This document shows positions 3,455 to 40,370 of a stretch of DNA of 46,117 nucleotides, piece by piece (positions within the stretch are counted from its first letter, which is position 1; the number at the start of each line of letters is the position of its first letter). The stretch covers positions 26,150-72,266 of the forward strand of contig NZ_JAIEWN010000029.1 of NCBI RefSeq assembly GCF_019599295.1. Direction: 5' to 3'. The notes under the pieces were generated by a model, which had not been told where the DNA came from, searched no databases, and saw only the letters and a program-made list of their open reading frames with translations. The stretch comes from Oscillochloris sp. ZM17-4 (GTDB lineage: Bacteria; Chloroflexota; Chloroflexia; Chloroflexales; Chloroflexaceae). The position numbers were made by a program, and so were the translations under genes.

Positions 3455-3598
3455 GAGGGGACAGGGGACAGAAGACAGGGAATAGGCCGAGCACATGAGG
3501 TTGACGGAATATCCCGGCGACAAGACGTTTCGTATCGGCGGACGAGATTCCTGTCCCCTGCCCCCGTCCATCCCCTGTCCCCTGTCCCCTGTCCCCCA
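3455..3598. repeat. Seven-base tandem repeat, CCCCTGT family, in two inverted blocks
   Basis: The left block (3456-3480) holds imperfect GGGGACA units. The right block (3550-3597) holds the complementary CCCCTGT units, so the transcript of glgE-treS could fold here into a long hairpin. The same unit recurs at 40316-40357. It fills the whole glgE-treS gap and touches the glgE stop codon. Confidence 0.8.
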
Positions 3599-7843: not shown

Positions 7844-10107
7844 GGATGCGCCGGGGATACGTCCACCCCCAACAATCTCCCCACCAGAGGCAGCACCGCC
7901 TCGGCGCGGGCCGCGTCGATATCGTCATCGGTGGCGCGGGGCGACGCGGGGCCAGACGCAGCCCCGCGCCTGGCCCGCTCGCCCATCTGCCGCCGCTCGG
8001 CGGGCGCGAAGGTGGCGAAGGTGCGCCGGATCAGCGGCAGAGTCTGGAGGAAGAGGTCCGGCGTCAGGCTGGCGACCCAGCCGTCGAGGATGCCCCAGAG
8101 CAGGTCGTCGTGCAGCACGATCGCCCCGCTATCCTTGAGCAGCCCCTCGACCCATGCGGCGGCGTGGGCCGGCGCGGTCGCCTGGGAGATCGCCAGGCCC
8201 ACGCGGCGGGCCGCCTCCTCGGCGTCGATCGCCCCCGCGTCGAGCAGCAGCCGGCAGCAGCGCCCGCCCACCAGCCCGTGGACCGCGCCAAGATCGGCGA
8301 CCCGGAGCAGGGACTGGTGCCACGCCTCCAGGTGCGCGGGCTGCTGGAGCAGGCGCAGGGCCGCAGCGACCGCCACGACCCGCCCGAACATCGCGCCGGC
8401 CGCGTCATCGTTCAGCGAGCTGCACGCGCCGGGCAGGCCGATGCAGATGCGCAGCACGATCCCGTCCACCACATGCGCAATAGCCGCCGTGTCGGTGTTG
8501 CGCACCCCGCCGTAGCGCAGGCTGGACACCAGGCTGCTGCGGGTGATCTGGTCCTCGCGCACCAGGGCGTCCATCAGCTGGGCCACATCGGCGGTGCGCG
8601 CCGAGCGCTCCTGGAGCCAGGCCATCAGCGCGGGCACCGCGTCGGGCAGGTCGGCCAGGAGCACCTGGTTGACAATGCCCACCAGATCGGGGAGGCCGGC
8701 CGCGCGCTCGGCCTCGTCCAGCGCGCGGGCGCGGGCCGCGTCGCGCAGGGTGTTGCCCCAGATCCCGGCCTCGATCAGGGACACGGTCAGCTCGGGCCGC
8801 CACTCGATCCGCCAGACCTCGCGGAAGGTACCGGTGCCGCCGCCGCCCTGGAGCTGGCCCCAGGCAACGCCGAGCAGGCCCAGCCGGCGCAGCAGGTGGC
8901 TGCGCTCCAGGTCGAAGGGCTTGCGCAGGTCGAGGTCAATGTCGCGCCATGTCGCCTCGGGGGCCAGCCGGAGCCGCCGCTGCTCGCGCTGAAGATCCTG
9001 CTGGAGCGGCACGCTCGGCGTCTCATCGGGCACCGCGCCCATGCGCTCGCCGACGATCAGCTGGTCGTGGATCAGGCGCATGGGCGCGTCGCCGCCGAAG
9101 CAGAAGACCGCCCGGCTCGCCTCGTTCAGCTCATCCAGGCCGGGCAGCGGGTGGCCGCGCAGCGCCGCCAGGCTCTCGGCCAGGCGCACCGCCTCGATCG
9201 CGTGGGCCGCCGAGCCGTCCAGATCCTGGCCGCGCAGCAGGCGGGCCACGCGGGTCATCCAGCGCACCGTCACCTGCTCCTCGTGCGCCCAGAGGTGGTC
9301 GTACCAGCCGGGCGAGCCGATGCCCGCGCCGTAGCCGCTGGCGGAGGAGAGCCGCCCGTAGGTCCACGGCGCCCAGGTGGCGGCGGTCTTCGTCTTGGGC
9401 AGGCCCTTGAGCAGGGCGGCGTCGCCCTTCTTGTCGCCCAGGTCAACCAGGGCTGGCCCGTGCCACGCCCCGCAGACCACCGCGACCCGCGTGAACCCCT
9501 CGCCGAGGGCCGTGCGGATCGTCTTGCGCATCCACGCCTCGCGCCGGGCCTCGCCCGGCTCGGGCGGGGGCGACTCGGCCCGCAGGGCGGCCATCGCCTC
9601 CAGGATAGCCGCGAAGATGTCGGCGCTATCGCGGCGCTGCTCGACCATCTGCTCCCACCAGCGCTCGCCGTCGCTGAACCCGGCGGCCTGGGCCAGCCAG
9701 CCCAGCGGGTCTTGGGAAGGGTGAAGGATGAAGGATGAAGGATGAAGGTCGGCGGAGCTGTCTTCTGTGCCGGTATCCTCTGCCTTCTGCCCAAGCTGGT
9801 GCCACTGCGGCAGGTCCATCATCCGCACGGGGAGGCCCCGTCCCAGCCCGTAGCTGATCGCCTGCCACTCGGGCGAGAACGTGGCGAACGGGTAGAAGAC
9901 CGCGTCGCGCGGCTGGTCGGCGGCGTAGACGAGCAGGGCCACCGGCGGGCGCATCTCGGGGTGGGCCAGCAGCGGCAGCACCGGCTCGGCGTCGGGCGGC
10001 CCCTCCACCAGCACCGCGTCGGGCACGAGATCCTCCAGCGCCTTTCTCAGGCTGCGCGCCGAGCCGGGGCCGTGGTGGCGGATGCCAAAGATGTGGTGTG
10101 ATGACAT
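7840..10107 (-). CDS. DUF5682 family protein
   Basis: A cytoplasmic protein of 755 residues. The N terminus (FGIRHHGPGSARSL, residues 7-20, then PDAVLVEGPPDAE from 29) is typical of DUF5682 and recalls the His/Glu-rich start of TraB/ChaN/EreA-like proteins. That fold link is only inference. The family is known mainly from neighbourhoods with MoxR ATPases, VWA proteins, DUF5691 and SWIM zinc-finger proteins, and its function is unknown. Here it follows a broken MoxR gene and precedes ung and VWA. An in-frame block of seven-base repeats (9717-9748) inserts LHPSSFILHPS near residue 125. The start ATG 10107 has GAGGG four bases upstream, supplied by the adjacent octamer repeat. Confidence 0.85.
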   Translation of the reverse strand: MSSHHIFGIRHHGPGSARSLRKALEDLVPDAVLVEGPPDAEPVLPLLAHPEMRPPVALLVYAADQPRDAVFYPFATFSPEWQAISYGLGRGLPVRMMDLPQWHQLGQKAEDTGTEDSSADLHPSSFILHPSQDPLGWLAQAAGFSDGERWWEQMVEQRRDSADIFAAILEAMAALRAESPPPEPGEARREAWMRKTIRTALGEGFTRVAVVCGAWHGPALVDLGDKKGDAALLKGLPKTKTAATWAPWTYGRLSSASGYGAGIGSPGWYDHLWAHEEQVTVRWMTRVARLLRGQDLDGSAAHAIEAVRLAESLAALRGHPLPGLDELNEASRAVFCFGGDAPMRLIHDQLIVGERMGAVPDETPSVPLQQDLQREQRRLRLAPEATWRDIDLDLRKPFDLERSHLLRRLGLLGVAWGQLQGGGGTGTFREVWRIEWRPELTVSLIEAGIWGNTLRDAARARALDEAERAAGLPDLVGIVNQVLLADLPDAVPALMAWLQERSARTADVAQLMDALVREDQITRSSLVSSLRYGGVRNTDTAAIAHVVDGIVLRICIGLPGACSSLNDDAAGAMFGRVVAVAAALRLLQQPAHLEAWHQSLLRVADLGAVHGLVGGRCCRLLLDAGAIDAEEAARRVGLAISQATAPAHAAAWVEGLLKDSGAIVLHDDLLWGILDGWVASLTPDLFLQTLPLIRRTFATFAPAERRQMGERARRGAASGPASPRATDDDIDAARAEAVLPLVGRLLGVDVSPAHP
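9717..9748. repeat. Seven-base tandem repeat GATGAAG inside the DUF5682 gene
   Basis: About four units of GATGAAG in period 7. Read on the coding (minus) strand the unit is CTTCATC, which has no stop in any frame, so the gene stays open. It encodes the LHPSSFILHPS segment. Confidence 0.8.
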
Positions 10108-12935: not shown

Positions 12936-13036
12936 GTAATGTTGAATGTTGAATGTTGAATGTTGAATGTACAGTGTACAGCGATCTAGCGCGTCCGATC
13001 CGGCATTCAGCATTCAGCATTCAACATTCAACATTC
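12936..13036. repeat. Seven-base TTGAATG repeats in inverted blocks
   Basis: About four TTGAATG units (12940-12969) and about four complementary units (13003-13035) flank a GC-rich core with GTCCGATCCGG. The pair can fold into a long hairpin between the GT4 and amidase genes. The right block supplies the last codons and the TGA stop of the GT4 gene. Confidence 0.85.
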
Positions 13037-33828: not shown

Positions 33829-35769
33829 ATGCCTCGTCGCATCCTGCTGGCCCTGGCCGTGCTCCTGCTGATCACGCTCATCCCGAACGCCCCGGCCCGC
33901 GCCCAGACCATTGCCTCATTCACCAGCGAGCGCCCGGTGGTGTCGCCGCTGACGCCGGCCCTGATCTATGTGAATGTGCAGGGCTACACTGGCCCGGCCC
34001 AGCTGCTGATCTTCGACCCGGCCGGCCGCACGGCCGGCGCCTTCGAGCTTACGCTGAGCGGCGGCTACGGTGCCGTCCAGGTGCTGCCGCGCGGCGCCCT
34101 CGGCCAGCACTGGGGCGCGCTCTTCGTCAACGGCGCCCAGGTCTACGCCGGCACGATCTACACCCTCGACGCCGACACCACGGTGCAGACCGGCGCCCCC
34201 GCCTTCGACACGCTCTACGACAAGGTCCGCGGCTTTATGGCCAGCGACCGCCTGAGCTACAGCCTCGACGGCGCCCAGGTCGCCGGCTACCGCTCTCCCG
34301 ACAGCCCGCTGCTCTGGCTGCGCGACCACTACTACCAGAACCGGGCCTTCCGCTACTTCGAGCAGGACCTGCGCAGCCTGCCCGAGGCCTTCGCCCGCGC
34401 CCAGCTGCCCGACGGCAGCCTGCCCGACTTCCTGGCCCGCCCCGAGTGGGGCATCCCGGCCTTCCGCACCCCGGTCGAGGCCGACGTGGAGTTCCTCTAT
34501 GTCCAGCTGATCTATGAGACCTGGCAGACCACTGGCGACACAGCCTGGATGCTGGGGATGCTGCCCTCGGCCCAGAAGGCGATTGCGTATACGCTGACCA
34601 GCCCAGAACGCTGGGAGCCCTACCTGGGCCTGGTGAAGCGGCCCTTCACGATCGACACATGGGACTTCGAGTACGGCCCGACCACCAGCGACCCGCGCAC
34701 TGGCAACCCGGCCCCGCGCCACTGGATCGACGGCCAGACCAAGTGGGGCATCTTCCACGGCGACAACACAGGCCTGGCTGAGGCGCTGCGCTCGCTCTCG
34801 ACCATGGAGCAGCAGGCGGGGCTCTGGGACAGCGCCTACAGCCGGCGGGCGCTGGCCGACGACATTATGACTCGGCTGAACGCCCTGAGCTGGAACGGCA
34901 GCTTCTACACCCACCACGTCAAGCTCGTGCCCTACGATGTCCCCGGCGTCGATGAGGCCACCCAGCTCAGCCTCTCCAACGCCCTGGCGCTCAACCGCGG
35001 CGTGCTGACGGTGGAGCAGGGCCGCATGATCGTCGGCGAGTACCTGCGCCGGCTCCAGGCCAGGGGCCGGGTCGCCTTCGCCGAGTGGTGGAGCATCGAC
35101 CCGCCCTTCCCGCCCGGCGCGTTCGGGCTGAACGGCCGGCTGGGCGAGCGCCCCGGCGAGTACGTCAACGGCGGGGTGATGCCGCTGGTCGGCGGCGAGC
35201 TCTCGCGCGGGGCCTTCCGCTACGGCTACGAGGAGTACGGCTTCGACATCCTTGAGCGCTACGCCGACCTGATCAGCCGCACCGGGGCCAGCTACCTCTG
35301 GTACTACCCCACCGGCGGCTTCGCCCCGGTCAACGAGTTCCTGGGCACCGACGGCTGGGGCTCCAGCGCCATGCTCGGCGCCCTGGTCGAGGGCGCGGCC
35401 GGCGTCGAGGACAGCGGGGTCAACTTCAGCGGGGCGACGATCAGCCCGCGCTGGCCGGCCGCCCCGCGCGACAAGGTGGGCGACGCCTATGTGGTGGCGC
35501 GCTACGCGAGCACCGGCGGCTACGCGGCCTACCGCTGGCACTACGCGCCGGCCCTCAAGAAGGGCGGCCCACAGTCGATCACGGTCGAGGCCACCGGCAG
35601 CGGCGACGGCAGCACCCTGCGCATCCTGCTGCCCGCCGCCGCCCGCCAGGTGACGCGAGTCACCCTCAACGGCCAGACCGTCGCCCCGGTCATCGAGACG
35701 GTCGGGCTGAGCCGGTATGTGGTTATAAAGGCCAATGGGCCAATTGTTCAGGTGCAAGTTAGTTTTTAG
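33829..35769 (+). CDS. Secreted six-hairpin glycosidase-like protein
   Basis: An exported protein of 646 residues with signal peptide MPRRILLALAVLLLITLIPNAPARAQ. An N-terminal beta domain (to about 130) is followed by an alpha/alpha barrel-like region with features of six-hairpin glycosidases: LLWLRDHYYQNRAFRYF, DGQTKWGIFHGDN, FAEWWSIDPPFPPGAFG, and the late EFLGTDGWGSSAMLGALVEG. A beta-sandwich ends the protein. Catalytic residues cannot be assigned without alignment. It may degrade or remodel an extracellular alpha-linked glycan. No ribosome binding site is evident before ATG 33829. Confidence 0.75.
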   Translation: MPRRILLALAVLLLITLIPNAPARAQTIASFTSERPVVSPLTPALIYVNVQGYTGPAQLLIFDPAGRTAGAFELTLSGGYGAVQVLPRGALGQHWGALFVNGAQVYAGTIYTLDADTTVQTGAPAFDTLYDKVRGFMASDRLSYSLDGAQVAGYRSPDSPLLWLRDHYYQNRAFRYFEQDLRSLPEAFARAQLPDGSLPDFLARPEWGIPAFRTPVEADVEFLYVQLIYETWQTTGDTAWMLGMLPSAQKAIAYTLTSPERWEPYLGLVKRPFTIDTWDFEYGPTTSDPRTGNPAPRHWIDGQTKWGIFHGDNTGLAEALRSLSTMEQQAGLWDSAYSRRALADDIMTRLNALSWNGSFYTHHVKLVPYDVPGVDEATQLSLSNALALNRGVLTVEQGRMIVGEYLRRLQARGRVAFAEWWSIDPPFPPGAFGLNGRLGERPGEYVNGGVMPLVGGELSRGAFRYGYEEYGFDILERYADLISRTGASYLWYYPTGGFAPVNEFLGTDGWGSSAMLGALVEGAAGVEDSGVNFSGATISPRWPAAPRDKVGDAYVVARYASTGGYAAYRWHYAPALKKGGPQSITVEATGSGDGSTLRILLPAAARQVTRVTLNGQTVAPVIETVGLSRYVVIKANGPIVQVQVSF

Positions 35770-35823
35770 TGTTGAGTGTTGAGTGTTGAGCGTTCGGACA
35801 CTCAACACTCAACACTCAACACT
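35767..35823. repeat. TTGAGTG seven-base repeats as an inverted pair
   Basis: About three TTGAGTG units and about four complementary units flank GTTCGGAC. It lies between the convergent secreted-protein and trpB genes and begins at the last base of the former's TAG, so it may act as a two-way terminator. Confidence 0.85.
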
Positions 35824-35828
35824 CGGGA

Positions 35829-37242: not shown

Positions 37243-37611
37243 CAACAACAAAAAACCCCCCGACCCGAGCTGGGTCGAGAGGCGAGAAAAACTCGTGGTG
37301 CCACTCTCGTTCGCCGGCCCTCTCGGGCGCGGCGCACTTTGCGGGTACTGTCGGCGGTGCCGCTCCATACCCATCGCCCTGATAACGGCGGCGTCTCCGG
37401 CGAAGACTACTTATGAATGTTGAATATTGAATGCTGAATGTTGAATTGTCGGACAATTCAACATTCAACATTCAACATTAAAAATTCTGTTCGTCCTGCG
37501 ACTCCCAGGGCCATTCCGCGCCGCCGTGTGCGCCGGCCTTTCACCATCTGCCGGCTCGCTGGGCACCGTGTTGCGCGTACTCGTCCTGCTCAACGTCGCT
37601 GCTCTGAAGTT
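37243..37611 (-). promoter_or_regulatory. T-box leader specific for tRNA-Trp upstream of trpB
   Basis: Reading the minus strand, stem I has AGTA (37581-37578), the distal loop GAGCCGGCAGATGGTG with GAAAGGCCGGC (37557-37532), and a specifier TGG (Trp codon) at 37513-37511. The T-box AGAGTGGCACCACGAG is at 37307-37292; its TGGC would pair with a GCCA 3' end, and bacterial tRNA-Trp has G73. AGAG and CGAG can pair with CTCG and CTCT to form the antiterminator. The same CTCT can instead join the terminator CCTCTCGACCC / GGGTCGGGGGG followed by six T. So uncharged tRNA-Trp should allow read-through into trpB. A repeat hairpin interrupts it at 37413-37479. Confidence 0.9.
37413..37479. repeat. TTGAATG repeat hairpin inside the T-box leader
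   Basis: About four TTGAATG-like units and the complementary CATTCAA units meet at the palindrome TTGAATTGTC-G-GACAATTCAA. It lies between T-box stem I and the antiterminator and would fold into one independent stem. Confidence 0.88.
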
Positions 37612-37617
37612 GCGCGG

Positions 37618-37646
37618 AGTATAGCAGGCCAGTCGCGGCGTGTCAA
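37618..37646 (-). promoter_or_regulatory. Consensus sigma-70 promoter of the trpB T-box transcript
   Basis: On the minus strand TTGACA (37646-37641), 17 bases, then TATACT (37623-37618). Transcription should start near 37611, at the 5' foot of T-box stem I. Confidence 0.9.
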
Positions 37647-37649
37647 CCG

Positions 37650-38375
37650 ATGCGATGGGCATGGCAGGGTATGTGCATCCTGGTGGCCGTGCTGCTGCGC
37701 GGCCGCAACGATGTGCGCGCCGGCGGCGGCGGCAGCTGGCGGCCCAGCCTCGGCGTGTTCCGCGGCATCCTCAAGGTCGGCGTGCCGGCGGCCCTGGAGG
37801 AGGTGCTGGTGATCGGCGCATTCGCCACCCTCACCCCGATCGTCGCCACCCTCGGCACCGTCTCGCTGGCCGCCCAGCGCGTGGTGATCAACATCCTCTC
37901 GCTCTCCTTCCTGCCCGGCCTCGGCTTCGGCCTCGCCGCCACCGCCCTGGTCGGCCAGGCCATCGGCGCACGCCGCCCCGACGAGGCCCGCGCCGTGATC
38001 AGCATCTCGCTGCGCTGGGCGATCATGTGGATGGGCGGGCTCGGCCTGCTCTTCTTCATCTTCGCCGAGTCCCTGGTGCGGATCTTTAGCGCCGACCCGG
38101 CCATGATCGCCACCGGCGCCGCCGCCATCCGCGTGGTCGCCTTCACCCAGCCCTTCTGGGCGGCCACCTTCGTCTACGCCGGGGCGCTGCGCGGCACCGG
38201 CGACACCCGCACGCCCCTGGTCATCACCGCCGCCGCGATCTGGTCGGCCGTCGGCCTCGGCGTTATCTTGATGAACACCTCCTTCCACAGCCTGGCCGGG
38301 ATCTGGGCCGCCTTCCTCGTCGTCGGCCCCTTCGAGACCTTGGTCTACTGGCGGGCCTGGCGCAGAAAATGTTGA
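37650..38375 (+). pseudogene. C-terminal half of a MATE efflux transporter
   Basis: About 240 residues with six membrane segments match the second half of a MATE multidrug/Na+ antiporter (GVPAALEEVLVIGAF, AAQRVVINILSLSFLPGLGFGLAATALVGQ, GALRGTGDTRTPL). Intact proteins have about 450 residues in two six-helix halves, and the first half is absent. Immediately upstream lie the divergent trpB promoter and T-box, so the deletion or join falls near 37650. Half a MATE protein is not expected to transport. The ATG at 37650 has no ribosome binding site. The final residues and TGA come from the seven-base repeat at 38371. Confidence 0.85.
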
Positions 38376-38433
38376 AGGTTGAATGTTGAATGGCGAATGC
38401 CGCTATTCAACATTCAACCTTCAACATTCAACA
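38371..38433. repeat. TTGAATG/TTGAAGG seven-base repeats as an inverted pair
   Basis: Three units on the left and four complementary units on the right flank GGCGAATGCCGC. It lies between the MATE remnant and the DUF72 gene, supplying the stop of the first and ending three bases before the start of the second. Confidence 0.85.
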
Positions 38434-39425: not shown

Positions 39426-40370
39426 ATGGCGAGCACCACACATAAGGCGGGGGATAAAGACGCGAAGCGCCCCGACAACCCGTTCGCCCCGCTGCCGGGC
39501 CGGGTGCGCTACTCGGCGCGCTGGCTGGGGGCGAGCGCCGGGGCGACGGCGCTCGCCGCGCTGGCCGTGGCGAGAGGCGGGCCGCGGGCCGCCGCGGCCA
39601 TCGGGGCGGCGGGGGTCGCCGGGGCGACCTACGCGACATCATACGAGCCGAGCCGGCCGCGCATGGAGCGGATCAGCCTGCGCTTCCCCGGCCTGCCGCC
39701 GGCGCTGGACGGGCTGCGCATCGGGCAGCTGAGCGACCTGCACCTCGGGCACCGCTTCGCCATCGAGAACACGCGCTGGGCGGTGGCCCAGATGGTCGAT
39801 GAGGGGCCCGACCTGCTGGCGCTCACCGGCGACCTGGTCAGCTACACGCGCAACATCGCCGAGCTGCCGGGCCTGCTCGCCCCGCTGCGGGCGCCGCTGG
39901 GCATCTACGCGGTGCCGGGCAACCACGATCACTGGGAGGGCATGCCCGCGATCGCCGCGGCCCTGCGGCCGCTGGGCGTCGAGTTCCTGGTCAACGCCCG
40001 GCGCAGCCTGCGCTGGCGCGGCGCCGAGTTCACCCTCGCCGGCGTGGATGACGCCTGGGACGGCGAGATGGATATGGCCGCGGCCCTGGAGGGGGCTCCC
40101 GCCGGCGGCTTCACCGTGCTGCTCTGCCACATGCCCGACATGGCCGACGAGGCCGCCCAGCGCGGCGTGGACCTGCAGCTCTCGGGGCACACCCACGGCG
40201 GCCACATGCGCCTGCCCTGGCTGGGCTCCTTCGTCCTGCCGCGCCACGGGTGGCGCTACCCCATCGGCCTCCACCACGTCGGGCGCACCCAGGTCTATGT
40301 GAGCCGGGGCATCGGCCCCTGTCCCCTGTCCCCTGTCCCCTGTCCCCTGTCCCCTAGAAGAACACCTTGA
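39426..40370 (+). CDS. Metallophosphoesterase (YaeI-like) with repeat-altered C terminus
   Basis: A phosphoesterase of about 314 residues with an N-terminal membrane-associated segment (WLGASAGATALAALAVA, GATYATSYEPSR). All metal-site motifs are present: QLSDLHLGH, LALTGDLV, VPGNHDHW, LLCHMPD and LSGHTHGGHMRLP. Relatives of this kind act on UDP-diacylglucosamine-like or other phosphodiesters, but the substrate here is unknown. Conservation stops at VYVSRGIG (about 40315). The frame then runs through CCCCTGT repeats (PCPLSPVPCPLSP) into antisense of the next gene, so the native last 15-20 residues are lost. ATG 39426 follows GAGGAG by nine bases. Confidence 0.85.
   Translation: MASTTHKAGDKDAKRPDNPFAPLPGRVRYSARWLGASAGATALAALAVARGGPRAAAAIGAAGVAGATYATSYEPSRPRMERISLRFPGLPPALDGLRIGQLSDLHLGHRFAIENTRWAVAQMVDEGPDLLALTGDLVSYTRNIAELPGLLAPLRAPLGIYAVPGNHDHWEGMPAIAAALRPLGVEFLVNARRSLRWRGAEFTLAGVDDAWDGEMDMAAALEGAPAGGFTVLLCHMPDMADEAAQRGVDLQLSGHTHGGHMRLPWLGSFVLPRHGWRYPIGLHHVGRTQVYVSRGIGPCPLSPVPCPLSPRRTP
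40316..40357. repeat. Seven-base tandem repeat CCCCTGT
   Basis: Five perfect units and a final CCCCTAG, in period 7. It encodes the tail of the metallophosphoesterase, and its degenerate last unit holds the TAG stop of the convergent epimerase gene. Confidence 0.92.

Follow-up and report, generated by a model that had tools for sequence, protein, structure and literature searches.

The window, by which we mean the whole analysed stretch of 46,117 nucleotides of the Oscillochloris sp. ZM17-4 genome, carries on its minus strand trpB2, a TrpB2-type tryptophan synthase beta gene, and a T-box leader upstream of it (Table 1). Besides the palindromic heptad repeat contained in this leader, a second palindromic heptad (AGTGTTG/ACACTCA) was found at positions 35768-35824, directly 3' of the trpB2 stop codon and before the convergent gene. 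More heptad arrays are located at positions 12938-13036, 38368-38433, 3550-3596, 9716-9748, and 40316-40355; they consist of AATGTTG palindromes, CCTGTCC, GAAGGAT, and CCCCTGT units, and some of them overlap predicted ORF ends.

Table 1. Features of the trpB2 locus (window positions; sub-elements are given in the last column)
Feature	Position	Strand	Details and basis
trpB2, TrpB-like PLP-dependent enzyme, 453 aa	35829-37190	minus	NF009057 (742 bits), TIGR01415 (635 bits); translation
Intrinsic terminator	37250-37282	minus	CCTCTCGACCC/GGGTCGGGGGG, T tract 37255-37250; sequence
Antiterminator	37276-37308	minus	T-box bulge TGGCACC (37303-37297); Rfam alignment, sequence
Stem III with flanking purines	37310-37340	minus	stem III 37334-37312, AAAGTG 37340-37335, AA 37311-37310; Rfam alignment
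Stem IIA/B region	37341-37402	minus	F-box CCGTTA 37388-37383 and conserved linker hairpin; Rfam alignment
Stem II	37403-37497	minus	base AGGAC 37497-37493 / GTCTT 37407-37403; Rfam alignment
Apical stem II, palindromic heptad repeat	37412-37489	minus	TTGAATG units; arms 37452-37487 and 37415-37450
Stem I, specifier loop and distal double T-loop region	37501-37602	minus	RF00230 alignment
Sigma-70-type promoter	37618-37646	minus	TTGACA 37646-37641, 17-base spacer, TATACT 37623-37618; sequence

The T-box leader of trpB2

A covariance comparison with the Rfam T-box model (RF00230) aligned the minus strand from 37602 to 37275 with the model along its entire length (76.4 bits, E-value of 8.3e-17). 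The score nevertheless falls under the curated cutoff, the gathering score of RF00230 being 93. A default Rfam scan of the whole window reported no matches, because the leader scores under this cutoff. The four other T-boxes found in the ZM17-4 genome likewise scored below it. A sequence-only reading of this DNA had proposed that the leader is a T-box for tRNA-Trp in which a repeat hairpin lies between stem I and the antiterminator, and both the alignment and the motifs described below support this proposal.

The specifier TGG (37513-37511) is preceded by GAA in the internal loop of stem I and fits the TrpB-like product of the downstream gene. The TGGC residues at 37303-37300 are predicted to pair with the GCCA acceptor end of the tRNA. 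These two elements and the consensus promoter, all of which the earlier reading had named, were confirmed on the minus strand. The two strands of the stem II S-turn, GAA (37492-37490) and AGTA (37411-37408), are both intact in the Rfam alignment, and the flanks of stem III agree with the RRRxG-stem III-AA motif described for T-boxes (PMC7583486). The terminator hairpin consists of 11 bp followed by the T tract. Its 5' strand shares CCTCTC with the 3' strand of the antiterminator; the two structures are therefore mutually exclusive, as had been claimed. The whole leader was more stably folded than every shuffle (z = -7.3). The features tested, namely the specifier, the UGGN bulge, the S-turn, the F-box, the stem III purines, and the exclusive antiterminator/terminator pair, were all present. 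Judged by its sequence, the leader is a transcriptional tRNA-Trp T-box in which, of everything tested, only the Rfam score cutoff is not reached.

Uncharged tRNA-Trp would pair with the UGG specifier and the UGGC bulge, favouring the antiterminator and switching trpB2 on, and the terminator would form with charged tRNA. The UGGC bulge predicts G73 as the discriminator base of tRNA-Trp. A tRNA-Trp gene was located in the ZM17-4 genome neither by two patterns nor by BLAST using the E. coli tRNA.

The stem II tip and its exchange among sister species

The window contains 13 copies of TTGAATG, compared with an expectation of 1.07 ± 1.08. The palindrome built from this unit has two arms of 36 nt, 89% complementary and separated by 1 nt, which contain 4.7 and 4.6 copies of the 7-nt unit. 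The sequence-only reading had recognised this palindrome correctly but had misplaced it, putting it in the linker where stems II and III would lie. In the model alignment, stem II has the layout AGGAC-GAA-(78 nt)-AGUA-GUCUU, the palindrome being the apical helix over the S-turn, and stems IIA/B and III are retained downstream of it. In the published anatomy of T-boxes, the S-turn is the main functional element of stem II (PMC7583486, PMC10651847). Matches of the palindrome to miRNA families were dismissed, since any long hairpin yields such matches.

The TTGAATG tip folded more stably than its shuffles (z = -7.9), and the hairpin paired with itself with a probability of 0.95 in a partition-function comparison. 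The pairing probabilities calculated with and without the tip hairpin were 0.99 and 0.99 for the terminator, 0.71 and 0.67 for stem III, and 0.50 and 0.51 for distal stem I.

At the identical tip of the trpB2 leader, the repeat units are TTGAATG in ZM17-4, TTTTTGA/ATTTTAG in G034, AAAGGTA in G036, and TTTTAGA in G037. Four species of the genus thus have four different heptad hairpins at one tip. Comparison with the trpB leaders of relatives that lack the repeat, a check suggested along with the earlier reading, revealed short ordinary tips at the same position in a fifth species (G033, 22 nt) and in an outgroup (G003, 14 nt). Most trpB leaders in other genera also have short tips, and long stem II tips without a repeat are found in some relatives, for example G005, G029, and G032.

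When the leaders of the three repeat-bearing sisters (G034, G036, and G037) were each compared with the ZM17-4 leader as reference, the identities were 91-97% in the promoter, 91-95% in stem I, 79-80% in the base strand of stem II (13-14 nt), 88-93% from stem IIA/B to stem III, and 83-92% in the antiterminator/terminator, so that the core as a whole was 79-97% identical. The identity of the tips to that of ZM17-4 was 50-59%, compared with 51-54% for shuffled letters. The only pair of tips with a common unit type, those of G034 and G037, showed 70% identity vs 49% when shuffled. All four heptad tips beat their shuffles in folding (z = -4.2 to -7.9). In the base helix of stem II under the S-turn, both strands vary among the sisters and the pairing is kept.

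In the trpB2 leader of G034 (L069), the 3' strand of the S-turn is AAUA, not AGUA, beside the repeat hairpin. To go by these bases, the repeat may have impaired the G034 S-turn, and the exchange of the tip is perhaps not always harmless.

Heptad hairpins in other T-boxes and across the genome

Among the 144 T-box matches examined in the family, 23 carry heptad hairpins. The 25 hairpins recognised, which were counted by eye since the automatic threshold overlooked a few, are located at the stem II tip (10) and in stem III (15); none was recognised in stem I, stem IIA/B, the antiterminator, or the terminator of the 144 T-boxes. The ileS leader of ZM17-4 has one heptad hairpin at the stem II tip and another in stem III. 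Stem III of a ZM17-4 leader with an ACC (Thr) specifier contains GCAGATT units, and the G034 counterpart has TTGAATG there. A further ZM17-4 leader, L005 (G000:C95:40832-41135), has TGAGTGC/CTCAACA-like units inside its stem II tip, whereas its counterpart in G034 (L072) has only CCGGC-GCAG-GCCG at this tip; the difference between the two is a clean heptad insertion into the stem II loop. Heptads also occupy the stem II tip of the Trp leaders L139 and L149, which come from two named genomes that are more distant. In a leader with a GGC (Gly) specifier (L292, G030:C598:583-959), heptad arms apparently close stem III, with over 100 nt of other sequence lying between them. No heptads were found inside the hits of other structured RNAs (5 RNase P, 5 TPP, 13 cobalamin, and 8 tmRNA).

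Throughout the 6.7-Mb ZM17-4 genome, TTGAATGTTGAAT occurs in 745 copies with one mismatch or less, and no copy was found in the reversed control. GATTGCAGATTGCAGATTG has 771 copies in ZM17-4, 262 in the sister G034, and 12 in G036; elsewhere among 201 genomes of the phylum, it was found in only seven other genomes with few copies each. The most copies of both counted units are in ZM17-4. Palindromic elements of period 7 numbered 37 in 400 kb of ZM17-4 and 43 in a G034 contig of approximately 396 kb with matching content, whereas those of periods 5, 6, 8, 9, 10, and 11 numbered 0-2 in the same samples, these element counts resting on the 400-kb samples and on pattern counts. Numerous unit sequences occur among the heptad elements.

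The T-boxes of two species contain 9 heptad hairpins in 2.9 kb, approximately two-fold the number expected (about 4.5) on the assumption that 12% of the genome is noncoding. The excess is nearer three-fold with an ORF-based noncoding estimate (0.95-1.29 per kb). The two-fold excess was judged not compelling as a sign that heptads actively target T-boxes. The two- to three-fold density may leave room for some slight benefit or for an attraction.

Outside T-boxes, the site orthologous to a heptad element holds the same heptad, one of a different kind, or some other hairpin. Of the 25 partners without a heptad, 18 contained a stem of 10 bp or more, compared with 31/113 and 42/116 heptad-free noncoding stretches (27-36%). 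In a set of orthologous intergenic sites of two sisters (L098-L117 vs L118-L137; for example, G000 C1:31748, 54989, 233561, and 296910), unrelated palindromes are swapped, a heptad for a different heptad or a heptad for a non-repeat hairpin. A search for the Y1_Tnp transposase (PF01797) gave no match at E <= 0.001 in the ZM17-4 assembly, which is 98.6% complete, and PF01797 matches are present in four sister genomes. A RAYT transposase was rejected as the mover of the repeats, since none is found in the ZM17-4 genome.

An enzyme that recognises hairpins, or a recombination that swaps palindromes, might move the repeats, and the tips of stems II and III would then be preferred targets, not merely permissive ones. 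The hairpins at 18 of the 25 heptad-less orthologous sites and the position of the L005 insertion within a stem-loop are consistent with such targeting. However, the genome richest in the counted units has no Y1_Tnp match, heptads are absent from the RNase P, TPP, cobalamin, and tmRNA hits, and the same pattern is expected from selection against insertion elsewhere in the T-box. We regard targeted movement as unlikely. A broader idea, that a process in these Chloroflexales actively exchanges palindromes at hairpin tips genome-wide and that riboswitch stems are docking places for species-specific helices that tune switching, seems to us unlikely.

Role of the tip hairpin and related repeat systems

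Probably, the trpB2 leader is a normal T-box for tRNA-Trp in which genomic heptad palindromes have repeatedly taken over the free tip and are tolerated there. One of the palindromic heptad elements of the genome would have taken the place of the stem II segment lying beyond the S-turn. The work of stem II would be done by its base and the S-turn, with the tip pointing away, so that any self-folding hairpin could be accepted at the tip, and successive heptad hairpins would have replaced each other over time at this tip and in stem III. The sequence-only reading had offered two possibilities, that the insertion was tolerated or that it was adopted as a spacer helix. Tolerance is favoured because the tip was replaced while the core was conserved, because the mismatches in the arms have no bias toward G-U over A-C, and because the hairpin folds on itself and the predicted pairing of the other helices is unchanged. 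In the test of RNA-level maintenance of the arms, G-U mismatches were not in excess on the transcribed strand (44 G-U vs 46 A-C); the genome-wide control gave 63 G-U vs 54 A-C.

If the hairpin had been adopted, the long extension of stem II might aid co-transcriptional folding, time RNA polymerase, or contact the tRNA, and selection would keep a long hairpin whose sequence is free to vary. The fact that four congeneric species keep a long hairpin at the tip despite replacement of its sequence, the long non-repeat tips of G005, G029, and G032, and a heptad density in T-boxes about twice the rough noncoding estimate point in this direction. On the other hand, G-U is not in excess over A-C, the leaders of G033, G003, and most other genera manage with short tips, and the core is predicted to pair in the same way without the hairpin, and adoption seems unlikely. 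It is very improbable that the repeat has disrupted the T-box and left it dead, as the score under the gathering cutoff might suggest, since the functional motifs, the promoter, and the terminator/antiterminator pair are intact and are 79-97% conserved in the sisters while the repeat changes.

The trpB2 leader shares with the T-boxes of RF00230 the stem I specifier, the S-turn, the F-box in stem IIA/B, stem III, the UGGN antiterminator, the competing terminator, and a downstream gene of amino acid biosynthesis; it differs from them in that its apical stem II is a 78-nt palindrome of tandem heptads. In Nostoc, P6b of the tRNA-Leu(UAA) group I intron consists of 7-nt units of the classes TDNGATT and NNTGAGT, which have interchanged with repeated shifts (PMC4476775). 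This is the closest precedent, since there too a structured RNA has a peripheral stem with 7-nt units on both strands. Different heptad classes occupy one stem in relatives there, as four unit types do in four species here. It differs in being a cyanobacterial group I intron with two motif classes, whereas the element described here is a Chloroflexales riboswitch with at least four unit types at a single site. TTAGATT and GTTGAGT, two of the Chloroflexales units, conform to the Nostoc classes TDNGATT and NNTGAGT, respectively, which is possibly a coincidence.

Vioque is said to have described in 1997 STRR tandem heptads within cyanobacterial RNase P RNA. These are also tandem heptads in a structural RNA gene, whereas the Chloroflexales RNase P hits are without internal heptads. 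Heptameric intergenic repeats of the GGGNATC type in Xanthomonas and Nostoc are enriched in noncoding DNA genome-wide, and some of them are inverted (PMC4692102). They differ from the present elements in being a single G-rich unit type studied for quadruplexes, with no report of an occurrence inside riboswitches. REP/RAYT elements are similar in being short intergenic palindromes present by hundreds per genome. Unlike them, the ZM17-4 heptads have an internal 7-nt tandem structure, comprise many unrelated units, and are found in a genome with no Y1 transposase match. The open-licence literature searched yielded no description of heptad hairpins within riboswitches.

The trpB2 leaders represent a natural experiment in RNA modularity, in which a conserved riboswitch bears, on corresponding arms, hairpins that reach 90 nt and differ between related species. 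The exchanged tips show where the sequence of a T-box is unconstrained and provide a ready test set for that question. They also extend the heptad-hairpin phenomenon of cyanobacteria to a second phylum and to riboswitches, and draw attention to a puzzling turnover of palindromes at fixed sites in the genome.
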